Source of the DNA: an uncultured delta proteobacterium
GTDB lineage: Bacteria; Myxococcota_A; UBA9160; JAFDET01
Direction: 5' to 3'
DNA: 64,000 nucleotides
Assembly (NCBI GenBank): GCA_947259215.1
Contig: CAMYLJ010000013.1
Span: forward strand, 1-64,000
Below, piece by piece: positions 57,871 through 61,725 of the stretch. Numbering within the stretch: the first letter of the stretch is position 1; each line of letters starts with the position of its first letter. The notes below the pieces were generated by a model, which had not been told where the DNA came from, ran no database searches, and saw only the letters and a program-made list of their open reading frames with translations. Made by a program: the position numbers and the translations under genes.

Positions 57871-58051
57871 TCTCGACCTTCTGATCTTCGGGTGCGTCGT
57901 GAGCTTCATCGCCTGGGCCGGCATGTACATCTACGTGCGGGAGATCTTCACCCGCGGCGAGACGAAGGAGGACCGCGAGGTCCCCGTCCACATCGAACCC
58001 GGCGACGCCGCGATTCCCGCGCGCGCTCGCGTGGCGTCGCGTAGGCGATGA
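57863..58051 (+). CDS. Small single-helix membrane protein
   Basis: A 62-residue protein beginning MTDLDLLIFGCVVSFIAWAG, a single membrane segment followed by MYIYVREIFTRGETKEDRE and a basic tail. It starts inside the preceding gene and overlaps the following SDR gene by 4 bp (ATGA), so translation of the three is coupled. Too short for family assignment. Confidence 0.7.
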   Translation: MTDLDLLIFGCVVSFIAWAGMYIYVREIFTRGETKEDREVPVHIEPGDAAIPARARVASRRR

Positions 58052-58815
58052 CGTCACTTCGGGCCTCGCGAAACGTTCTCGTGCAGGGTTCGAGCCGGGG
58101 CCTGGGCCTCGCGCTCGCGCAAGCCCTGGTCGCGAGGCCCGACGTCGGACTCGTCTTCGCAACCTGCCGGGATCCGGGCCGCAGTCCGGGGCTCGAGGCC
58201 CTCCGGCGGGAACACCCGGATCGAGTCCTCGTTCGGCCGCTCGACGTGCGCTGCGAGAAGAGCATCGGGGCGGCCGCCGAAGGGCTCGGCGAGGATTGCG
58301 ATCGCCTGCACCTGCTGCTGAACTGCTCCGGCATCCTGCACGACGACTCGGGACTCCATCCCGAGAAGAAGCTGGAGCAGGTACAGCCGGAGAACCTCGT
58401 CCGGGCCTTCGAAGTGAATGCCTTCGGGCCGCTGCTGGTGGCAAAGCACTTCCTGCGCTTCCTGCGACACGACGAGCCGGCCGTCCTGGCCAACGTATCG
58501 GCCCGCGTGGGGAGCATCGGCGACAACCGGTCCGGAGGCTGGTACGGGTACCGTGCCTCCAAGGCCGCGCAGAACATGTTCACCCGCACCCTGGCCGTCG
58601 AGCTGCGGCGCCGCGCCCCGAACGTGGCCTGCGTGGCGCTCCATCCGGGAACGGTGGATACGGATCTCTCGCGGCCCTTCCAGCGCAGCGTGCCGAAAGG
58701 AAAGCTATTCTCCCCCGAGCAGGCCGCCCGACAGCTCCTGGCCGTGATCGATGCCGTGAGGCCCGAGCAGACCGGCAGCTTCCTGGCCTTCGACGGCTCG
58801 CGGATCCCGTGGTGA
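58048..58815 (+). CDS. Short-chain dehydrogenase/reductase (CsgA/C-factor-like)
   Basis: A 255-residue classical SDR. The cofactor loop is NVLVQGSSRGLGLALAQALV (GxxxGxG variant), and NCSGILHDD takes the NNAG position. The catalytic set is Asn/Ser (ANVSARVGSIGD), Tyr and Lys in YGYRASKAA. PGTVDTDLSRPFQ follows the active site. This subtype (GGWYGYRASKAAQNMF) is commonly encoded beside photolyases in LitR-type clusters. The substrate is unknown. Second-to-fourth gene coupling by ATGA overlaps supports one operon. Confidence 0.9.
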   Translation: MTSLRASRNVLVQGSSRGLGLALAQALVARPDVGLVFATCRDPGRSPGLEALRREHPDRVLVRPLDVRCEKSIGAAAEGLGEDCDRLHLLLNCSGILHDDSGLHPEKKLEQVQPENLVRAFEVNAFGPLLVAKHFLRFLRHDEPAVLANVSARVGSIGDNRSGGWYGYRASKAAQNMFTRTLAVELRRRAPNVACVALHPGTVDTDLSRPFQRSVPKGKLFSPEQAARQLLAVIDAVRPEQTGSFLAFDGSRIPW

Positions 58816-58837
58816 CGCGGAGAAAGGAATTTCCGAC

Positions 58838-60364
58838 ATGCGTGTAGCCACCCGCCTCGCGGGCATCGAGCTCGACGACTGGCGCGGCCGGCCGCTGCGT
58901 CTCGGGACGCTCTGGCAGGAGCAGCCCGTCGTCCTGGTCTTCATCCGCCACTTCGGCTGACTCTTCTGCCGGGAGCAAGTCGCGCAGTTGCGCGACCGGG
59001 TGGACGAGATCCGCAAGCAGGGCGCGGAGCTGGTCATCGTCGGCAACGGGGCGGCGCAGTTCGCCGAAGCCTTTCGCGAGGATCTCGGCATCGACGGCCC
59101 GCTGCTCGTCGACCCGGAGCTGCGCGCATACCGCGCGGCCGGGCTGCGGCGCGGCCGGGTGGAGGTGCTCTCGCCGCGCCTCGCCGGCAACGCGTTGCGC
59201 GCCCTGCGCGCCGGATTTCGGCAAGAGGGGGTGCAGGGCGACCCGTGGCAGCTGGGCGGCGTCTTCGTGATCCGGCCCGGCGGCGAGCTGGCATTCCGTC
59301 ATACGAGCCGCGAGGCGGGCGACCACCCGAACCTGGACGATGTGCTCGCCGCGCTGGCGCCGTCGGCTCCGGCCGTCGAAGAAGAGCCGCCCGCCAACCC
59401 GGCGGTTCGCTGGATCGGCCGCGGCCTGGCGCGCATCGTCGATCCGGCCATCCCCGTCTCCTTCGCCCGCCCGGGGCTCCAGCTGCGCTCGCTCGCGTTC
59501 GACCCGAGCGACCTCGACGTCGACCTGTCCGGCCGGCGCTGCGTGGTCACCGGAGCCAACTCCGGCCTCGGCTACGAAGCCGCGCTGGCGCTGGCGGACC
59601 TGGGAGCGGAGGTCGTGCTGGCGTGCCGCAGCCTCGCGCGGGGAGAGGAGGCGGCGGAGCGAATCCGCGAACAGACCGGGAGCTCCCGCGTCTCGGTGGA
59701 GACGATCGACCTGTCGGACCTCGCGTCGGTGCGCGAGGCCGCCGCCCGCCTGGTGGTGCAGCCCCTGGACGTCCTGATCCACAACGCCGGCCTGCTGCCG
59801 GAAGAACGCATCGAGACGCGCGACGGCCTCGAGCTCACGTGGGCCACCCACGTGATCGGTCCCCACCTGCTGACGCGGCTGCTGCTGCCCGCACTGGAGA
59901 AGTCGCCCGAAGCCCGGGTGGTCTGGGTCTCTTCGGGCGGCATGTACACGCGCCGGCTGAACCTCGACGATCCGAACTGGCAGGCCCGGGAGTACGACGG
60001 CGTCCTGGCGTACGCCGAGACCAAGCGCGCGCAGGTGGTGCTGGCGGAGCTCTGGGCGGAAAAGCTCGCCGAGAGCGGGATCCGGGTGAACGCGATGCAC
60101 CCGGGCTGGGCGGACACGCCCGGGGTGCGCAGCTCGCTCCCGGGATTCTTCCGTCTCACCCAGGCCATCCTGCGCAGCCCGGCGGAAGGCGCCGATACCG
60201 TGGTCTGGCTCGCGGCCAGTCCGCGCGCCGCAGACGTCTCCGGACGCTTCTTCTTCGACCGTGAGCCGCGCCAGACCCACTATCTGCCCTGGACGCGGGA
60301 GTCCGAAGAGGACCGGCGCCAGCTCTGGCAGCGCTGCGAAGCCGCCTGCAGCGACGCCACATGA
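58838..60364 (+). CDS. Selenocysteine-containing peroxiredoxin-like/SDR fusion protein
   Basis: A 508-residue protein if the in-frame TGA at 58958-58960 (codon 41) is read as selenocysteine. Residues 1-40 (MRVATRLAGIELDDWRGRPL ... VVLVFIRHFG) and the part after TGA (LFCREQVAQLRDRVDEIRKQ) form one thioredoxin-fold AhpC/TSA_2 (SelU/PRXL2) domain. There the motif FGULFCREQ gives U41-x-x-C44. Residues about 190-508 are a complete SDR: VVTGANSGLGYEAA, HNAGLLPEE, then Tyr/Lys in YAETKRAQ. The ATG at 58838 has AAAGGA upstream. A SECIS-like hairpin lies 25 nt after the TGA. Likely role: a redox or peroxide-reducing enzyme in the light-stress operon. The stop overlaps the next start (ATGA). Confidence 0.85.
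58961..58996 (+). ncRNA. Bacterial SECIS-like element
   Basis: The sequence directly after the in-frame TGA folds with an apical stem GTCGCGC (58979-58985), loop AGTT (58986-58989) and GCGCGAC (58990-58996), a perfect 7-bp stem. The loop has G in its first two positions and starts 25 nt after the TGA. That agrees with the described bacterial SECIS rules as I recall them (apical loop 16-37 nt after UGA with an early G). It would recruit SelB-tRNA-Sec. Confidence 0.75.
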
Positions 60365-61725
60365 GCACGCCCCTTCCGCGCGTGGCCGTGGCCGGCGCCT
60401 CGGGCTTCGTCGGGAGCGCCCTAGTGGGCGTGCTGGCCCAGCGCGCGGAGGTGATCGCGCTCGGCAGGCGCGTCTCCGAGGGGCGAGGCGCCGACGGCTC
60501 GGCCGTTCACGGCCGCCGCTGCGATCTCTTCTCCCTCCGCGAGACCGAGGCCGCACTCAAGGGTGCCGAGGTGGCGTACTACCTGGTGCACTCGATGCTG
60601 CCCTCCACGCGACTGACCCAGGCGCGCTTCGAGGACCTGGACCTCCTGCTGGCGGACAACTTCGGCCGGGCCGCGGCACAGGCGGGCGTGAAGCGCATCA
60701 TCTACCTGGGTGGCCTGGTACCGACCGAAGCCGAGTCGGGGGGCCACCTCTCCGCGCACCTGCGAAGCCGGCTCGAAGCCGAGCAGGCCCTGGCAGCGCA
60801 CGGCGTTCCGGTGACCGCGGTTCGGGCAGGCCTCGTCGTCGGTGCCGGAGGCTCGTCGCTCCAGATCCTGGTGCGTCTCGTCCGACGGCTGCCCGTCATG
60901 CTGTGTCCGCGCTGGACGCGCTCGCTCTCGCAGCCCATCGCGCTGGAGGACGTCGTCTCCGTCCTGGTGCACTGCCTGGAAGACGCCGAGACCACGGGAC
61001 GCATCTGCGAGGTGGGCGGGCCGGACGTCCTGAGCTACCGGGACATGATGCGGGAGACCGCGCGCGTGCTGGGTCGCCGGAGACTCTTTCTGCCGGTTCC
61101 GCTCTTCAGCCCGGGTTTGTCGCGCCTGTGGGTCTCGCTGATCACGCGCTCGCCGCGGTCGTTGGTGGCACCCCTGATCCAGAGCCTGCGCCATCCCATG
61201 GTGGCGCAGGACCGTTGGCTGCAAGAGCGCATGCATCTCCCGGGACGGCCGTTCGCCGAGTCCCTGAGCGAGGCGGTGCGCGCCGAGGGCCTGCGGCGCG
61301 AGCCGACGGTGCGCTCGGTCCAGCGGCTGCCCCAGCCAGCCGGGCGTGACGCCCGCTGGGTCGCCGAGGAGTACATCCGCTGGCTGCCGCGTTTCCTGAA
61401 TCCCCTGCTACGGGTCGAGCGGGACGGAGCGACCAGTCGCATCTTCGCGCGCGGCTGGCGTCGCCCGCTGCTGGAGCTCACGTATCGCACCCCGGGCAGC
61501 GAGGCCGATCGTGCCGTGCTCGACGTCACCGGGGGGCAGCTGGCCGGTCCCCGCCTGGGCTCGCCGAGGCTGGAGTTCCGGGTGACTCCCGACGCCCGCC
61601 AGCTCCTCGCCGCGCTCCAGGACTTCCGACCGGGACTCCCCTGGTGGATCTACGCGGTCACCCAGGCCCCCCTGCACCGTCTCGTGATGCACCGCTTCGG
61701 CCGGCATCTCGCCCGCAGCGTCTGA
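60361..61725 (+). CDS. NAD(P)-binding epimerase/NmrA-like protein with C-terminal domain
   Basis: A 454-residue protein. The N-terminal atypical SDR domain has VAVAGASGFVGSALVGVLA (GxxGxxG) and AYYLVHSM, then KRIIYLGGLVPTEAESGGHL and VTAVRAGLVVGAGGSS. The catalytic YxxxK is not evident, as in NmrA/complex I-like SDRs. A second region (about 330-454) is an SRPBCC-like or DUF2867-like domain. It begins inside the preceding stop (ATGA) and ends the plus-strand operon. It may be a redox sensor or acts on a quinone or lipid; uncertain. Confidence 0.82.
   Translation: MSTPLPRVAVAGASGFVGSALVGVLAQRAEVIALGRRVSEGRGADGSAVHGRRCDLFSLRETEAALKGAEVAYYLVHSMLPSTRLTQARFEDLDLLLADNFGRAAAQAGVKRIIYLGGLVPTEAESGGHLSAHLRSRLEAEQALAAHGVPVTAVRAGLVVGAGGSSLQILVRLVRRLPVMLCPRWTRSLSQPIALEDVVSVLVHCLEDAETTGRICEVGGPDVLSYRDMMRETARVLGRRRLFLPVPLFSPGLSRLWVSLITRSPRSLVAPLIQSLRHPMVAQDRWLQERMHLPGRPFAESLSEAVRAEGLRREPTVRSVQRLPQPAGRDARWVAEEYIRWLPRFLNPLLRVERDGATSRIFARGWRRPLLELTYRTPGSEADRAVLDVTGGQLAGPRLGSPRLEFRVTPDARQLLAALQDFRPGLPWWIYAVTQAPLHRLVMHRFGRHLARSV

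Follow-up and report, generated by a model that had tools for sequence, protein, structure and literature searches.

In this work we describe a gene found in a window of 64,000 nucleotides, the whole stretch of DNA analysed, which belongs to a 5.7 Mb assembly (96% complete) of an uncultured delta proteobacterium. The gene lies at positions 58838..60364 of the plus strand, where all the features below are also encoded, and starts with the ATG at 58838. Its 508 codons are followed by a terminal TGA (60362-60364), and they form one continuous frame, giving 508 residues, if a first TGA at codon 41 (58958..58960) is read as selenocysteine (Sec). At 58823..58828, 9 nt before the ATG, stands AAAGGA, the likely ribosome-binding site, and purine-rich stretches are found at the corresponding position in many of the orthologues.

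Translated with this TGA as U, the gene encodes two domains. The first one (residues 10-172; 58865..59353) is a Sec-containing thioredoxin-fold domain related to SelL and to the PRXL2 (SelU-like) proteins, in which codon 41 provides the U of a UxxC motif (FG-U-LF-C-REQ). The last one (59522..60361) is a short-chain dehydrogenase/reductase (SDR) domain, and the linker between both (59354..59521) contains the motif DP.I..SFDR.GF..H.L.FDP.DLDVDL, conserved in the alignments. Shortly after the UGA, at 58979..58996, the sequence GTCGCGC-AGTT-GCGCGAC forms the core of a hairpin with the features of a bacterial SECIS element. Upstream, a separate SDR gene (58048..58815; Pfam) is likely to be part of the same operon, and its homologue adjoins the fusion in another locus (L108). 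Downstream, an NAD(P)-binding epimerase/NmrA-like gene (60361..61725; Pfam) overlaps the stop codon of the selenoprotein gene with its own start (ATGA).

The in-frame UGA and the downstream hairpin

The fusion gene set (n=26) was defined by a scripted reading of each locus, in which genes were kept if 360 codons or more follow the TGA. The contig scan used short exact peptides, which reach close relatives only, so that fusions may also exist in other phyla, and a search of plasmids returned partial matches, none of them covering 80% of the query. All the 26 fusion orthologues recovered, which come from eight families of one class and share protein identities down to 55%, have a TGA at codon 41, surrounded by the motif [IVL]R[HQ]FG-U-[LIM]FCREQ, a recurrence that far exceeds chance. 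Three close fusions from public MAGs labelled as delta proteobacterium or Myxococcota (L022-L024) appear to come from the same genomes as G003, G085 and G002, and are counted once in this number. At the same codon, the 12 distant single-domain homologues without TGA that were fetched have TGC or TGT, and single-domain relatives from other families of the phylum carry either TGA or a Cys codon. Such an exchange is the classical Sec/Cys signature. The initial annotation had already described an in-frame TGA at codon 41 of a 508-codon gene, occupying the place of the first Cys of CxxC, and both statements hold once the orthologues and homologues are compared.

The hairpin begins after 18 nt from the UGA and consists of 7 bp closed by an AGUU loop, which starts at a distance of 25 nt from the UGA and carries G in its second position. 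The bSECIS model requires a loop of 3-9 nt with G in the first two loop bases, a spacing of 16-37 nt, and an MFE <= -7.5 kcal/mol (PMC13188914). The check for a bacterial SECIS suggested in the initial annotation thus returned a covarying hairpin that agrees with the published model, and does so at exactly the same place in 25 of the 26 fusion orthologues. The orthologue L071 forms just five of the seven pairs. In a set of 37 Sec sequences, the bases of the seven pairs are matched in 99.2% of the cells, and five of the pairs show changes on both sides. Not one of the five covariation measures is reached by any of 500 shuffles, and sliding the hairpin partner destroys the signal. When synonymous codons are resampled, all seven pairs would be expected in 7.8% of the sequences, as against the 25 of 26 genes observed. 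Furthermore, 26/26 genes use TTG for the Leu codon that spans the loop, compared with 6% of the leucine codons in the remainder of these genes, a count taken from related sequences that are not independent, though their proteins can be as little as 55% identical. The 63 nt that follow the UGA have, by themselves, an unexceptional fold energy (z = -1.0); the case for a SECIS is built on the covariation, together with the constraint on synonymous codons. No hairpin was found at this position in the Cys homologues. A SECIS that overlaps conserved codons, showing clear covariation and an invariant Leu codon that is otherwise rare, represents a good model for the study of constraints shared by protein and RNA.

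The machinery for Sec insertion is complete in the host genome, where the search for selA, selB, selC and selD proposed by the initial annotation found all four: selA (454 bits), selB (269.5 bits, 649 aa), selD (323.6 bits, with an in-frame TGA of its own), and a tRNA-Sec scoring 73.7 bits, above the cut-off, which ARAGORN identifies as SeC with anticodon tca. The selA gene is present in 75/80 genomes of the order; among the 25 genomes that yielded the long fusion within this order, 24 have it. In the remaining one (G074), an 85% complete MAG, selA was not found, probably because of missing sequence. According to the comparative evidence, UGA 41 is decoded as Sec by SelB and tRNA-Sec under the direction of the downstream hairpin.

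Three other readings of the TGA were considered. The TGA could be a true stop, ending a leader peptide of 40 codons that would be followed by a separate protein of 458 aa starting from TTG 58988, where an open reading frame does exist. Such a protein, however, would have its N-terminus within the first active-site helix of the predicted structure, losing the first strands, its TTG is the very codon spanning the SECIS loop, and the conserved FG-x-LFC runs across the TGA. Codons 1-40, to which the initial annotation had attributed their own ATG and ribosome-binding site, are also conserved in frame: no stop occurs in codons 3-40 of any fusion orthologue, the changes there fall mostly at third positions, and nearly all the start codons are placed 40 or 41 codons upstream of the TGA rather than after it. 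A split into two ORFs was rejected on this in-frame conservation and on the residues spanning the TGA, and we hold it to be very improbable. This is compatible with some partial termination at the UGA, which is likely to remain because recoding is incomplete (30-40% as measured for another SECIS; PMC4513850). A nonsense mutation or sequencing error changing TGC to TGA in an ordinary Cys gene could explain a single TGA in one MAG, given that Cys homologues exist, but it is harder still to believe and was rejected, since TGA instead of TGC is kept in 26 separately assembled genomes, as well as in single-domain Sec relatives, together with a covarying hairpin. Finally, a reassignment of TGA to an amino acid such as Trp or Gly would leave the frame equally open, but it was rejected as practically out of the question, since this gene and 20/26 orthologues end in TGA and tRNA-Sec, selA, selB and selD are present.

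Since 26 related genomes preserve both the UGA and its RNA signal, the Sec reading is almost certainly real, and on this comparative basis we consider that the gene very probably encodes a selenoprotein fusion with Sec at codon 41. Standard gene prediction would break up or shorten such a gene, so the family is probably misannotated in the at least 26 genomes where it occurs.

The two domains and their relatives

Residues 10-172 match the NCBIfam family NF040769, named 'SelL-related redox protein', with 141.7 bits (cut-off 120), and another member of the fusion group reaches 139.9 bits. In Pfam, AhpC-TSA_2 (PF13911) is recognised in the first half of the protein (67.8 bits, cut-off 27), and the match to AhpC/TSA (PF00578) extends over residues 9-107, spanning the TGA. 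The nearest solved relative is the prostamide/prostaglandin F synthase (PDB 9us9; E=7e-13 over 156 residues), whose motifs FGCxxCR and GDxxQxGG line up with this domain. In the AlphaFold2 model, residue 41 is located directly before helix 42-52, as expected of a thioredoxin-fold active site, and U41 and C44 are conserved among the fusion members. The peroxidatic motif of peroxiredoxins, PxxxTxxC/U, was not found, the motif here being RHFG-U-LFC.

The SelU-like label given by the initial annotation stands as far as the nearest structure is SelU3/PRXL2B, and can be refined in that the best curated family is the SelL-related one (NF040769). SelU and SelL are related branches, so that SelU-like remains an acceptable name. 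NF040769 has its redox pair in the same place, but its model describes a single domain of 173 positions, whereas here the domain is fused to an SDR via a conserved linker. The SelU/PRXL2 proteins (SelU3 = PRXL2B) are homologous to the N-terminal domain and have known Sec forms in animals (PMC3473315). In contrast to them, the present protein is bacterial, has a bacterial SECIS inside its coding region and a fused SDR, and its prostaglandin-like endoperoxide activity is putative. SelL from aquatic animals, which forms a diselenide, is named by NCBI as a relative of the NF040769 family, but it carries two Sec (PMC3473315) instead of the U-x-x-C found here.

Bacterial selenoproteins of the Prx-like type (UxxC) and of the pfam13911/cd02970 type (UxxS) have been reported (PMC9312934, PMC13188914), which likewise combine the thioredoxin fold, and in the second case pfam13911, with Sec. 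However, the motif listed for pfam13911 is UxxS, not the UxxC of this gene (PMC13188914). The same 2026 inventory, comprising 119 families and subfamilies, gives cd02970 with UxxS only and includes no SDR fusion (PMC13188914). A precedent for fused thioredoxin-fold selenoproteins is found in the GOS survey of 2008, with Prx selenoproteins fused to a PP2C-type phosphatase, a Secretin_N-like domain, and unknown domains; these partners differ from the present one, and no SDR is among them (PMC2398784). In the open-access literature, we found neither a selenoprotein-SDR fusion nor any paper on SelU-like bacterial, SelL-related or SDR-fused selenoproteins, in agreement with the statement of the initial annotation that the fusion had not been described. 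Selenoproteins of the SelU, SelL and pfam13911 types are already known, and it is the fusion of two enzymes, with an SDR as partner, that appears to be undescribed within the open-access literature.

The second half of the protein matches adh_short (PF00106; 92.7 bits, cut-off 26.6) from about residue 229, and displays the SDR motifs TGANSGxG, HNAG, VSSGG, and YAETK. The glycine-rich TGxxxGxG and residues N316, S365/S366, Y392, and K396 are kept in 24-25 of 25 fusion members; by these sequence features, the domain is an intact SDR. The residues CR follow its second beta strand, which presumably indicates the use of NADP(H). The AlphaFold2 model, built on a 25-member alignment, has a mean pLDDT of 90.4 and a pTM of 0.87. 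A Foldseek search with it gave LPOR and classical SDRs as the nearest folds for the second half, with matches dominated by SDRs and uninformative on the N-terminal domain. The best SDR matches are PRK06197/PRK06196 and LPOR. The C-terminal half does not reach the curated cut-offs set for PRK06197/06196, and it therefore probably constitutes an SDR subgroup of its own. Its motifs SSGGM and MHPGWADTPGV suggest a possible resemblance to DHRS12. The fusion to a selenoprotein domain distinguishes it from all these PRK06197/06196, LPOR and DHRS12-like SDRs.

Origin and possible role of the fusion

In a tree of the Sec domain, all the fusions are grouped, along with a few shorter genes, in a single branch of the class (support 98/91). 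Three of the shorter genes (L075, L082, and L106) are short merely because of contig ends. Other close relatives stop soon after the Sec domain and have no SDR: L079 (G036), L107 (G035:C267), L080 (G047), and L087 (G089). Within this tree, L079/L107, L080 and L087 would be best explained as likely later losses of the SDR, and a single fusion with a few such losses afterwards would be the simplest reading of the branching. One genome, G035, has a fused copy as well as an unfused one. In sister lineages, the redox domain and the SDR are encoded by separate, adjacent genes, either with Sec (L101, G274) or with Cys (L090, G214); the separate SDRs are 48% and 44% identical, respectively, and the gene order is opposite, with the SDR first in L101 and second in L090. 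Since the separate genes adjoin in both cases, a joint function of the two halves is supported, and since some relatives have no SDR, the halves can work apart.

The neighbours of the fusion were surveyed in 20 other loci, after setting aside several clusters that are antisense shadows of real genes. They include a photolyase (5 loci), a cyclopropane-fatty-acid (CFA)-synthase-like gene (5), an SRPBCC protein (4), a DUF2867/NmrA-like epimerase (4), and a MerR regulator with a B12-binding domain (3-4). The SRPBCC and DUF2867/NmrA-like kinds are also present in this window; photolyase, CFA synthase and MerR-B12 genes were not found within it. Among MerR-type B12 regulators, those of the CarH/LitR kind are described as light sensors (PMC6739363), and blue light induces the photolyase and CFA synthase genes in Vibrio cholerae (PMC5241685).

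From the fold, the motif and the relationship with prostaglandin F synthase, a mechanism can be proposed in which U41 of the N-terminal domain would attack an organic peroxide or endoperoxide. SelU3, the prostamide/prostaglandin F synthase, reduces the endoperoxide prostamide H2 (PMC3473315). In the proposed mechanism, C44 would then resolve the intermediate as a selenenylsulfide with U41, to be re-reduced by a cellular thiol system. The fused SDR, in turn, would reduce a carbonyl with NADP(H); it is plausible that this carbonyl belongs to the product of one and the same damaged lipid or pigment, or else to a coupled substrate. We put this combination of peroxide and carbonyl reduction forward tentatively, as a reading that falls a little short of probable. 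Photo-oxidative damage control is suggested by the photolyase, CFA synthase and MerR-B12 neighbours in related loci, and it is because some loci carry these genes that a repair of (photo)oxidised lipids is proposed. In its broadest form, the proposal would be that of a class-wide bifunctional family, with a Sec domain reducing lipid (endo)peroxides derived from light or singlet oxygen and an NADPH-dependent SDR reducing the resulting carbonyl, in a single-chain repair of photo-oxidised lipids or pigments. So specific a role is speculative, and we consider it rather unlikely as a whole.

Alternatively, the selenoprotein could take part in lipid or isoprenoid metabolism at large, as a thiol:disulfide oxidoreductase or one of another type, and have no specific connection with either light or peroxides. 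The neighbours do vary by genome, and those of this window are NAD(P)-binding and SRPBCC proteins, which would suit such a role. The recurrence of photolyase, CFA synthase and MerR-B12 genes near the fusion in several genera, and the endoperoxide substrate of the nearest solved relative (PMC3473315), speak against it, and we regard it as a serious possibility without calling it a probable one. Another role for the SDR within a genuine selenoprotein would be to recycle the Sec domain with electrons from NADPH, with no second substrate. The fusion of a redox domain to a nicotinamide enzyme invites this reading, as does a conserved cysteine (C263) after the second Rossmann strand, but the residues for carbonyl reduction (S, Y, and K) are conserved and there is no flavin domain. 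To our knowledge, no SDR reduces a disulfide or a selenenylsulfide, and we deem recycling improbable. Whether the partner acts on a carbonyl, as we tentatively favour, or otherwise, the joining of a SelU/SelL domain, whose function is poorly known, to an NADP(H)-type enzyme offers a testable clue to the role of this domain.

Further selenoprotein candidates

Several genomes of the phylum (e.g., G169, G348, G249, and G326) have homologues with two or three TGA codons in the matched frame, which could mean multiple Sec residues in some of them or just a match that extends past a stop. In the host genome itself, a weak fourth match (G000:C63:8082-8531) has one in-frame TGA in a frame of 539 codons, and a third Sec candidate of the same superfamily, with the motif HRHLHULPCREHV, is found at G000:C17:208966-209478 (L055). 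A second SelL-like selenoprotein gene (LRHFGUPYCRRHL) is located at G000:C5:76720-77280 on the plus strand (L128:2221-2781) and ends about 130 bp before selD, the gene with an in-frame TGA of its own, so that two selenoprotein genes would possibly share one operon.
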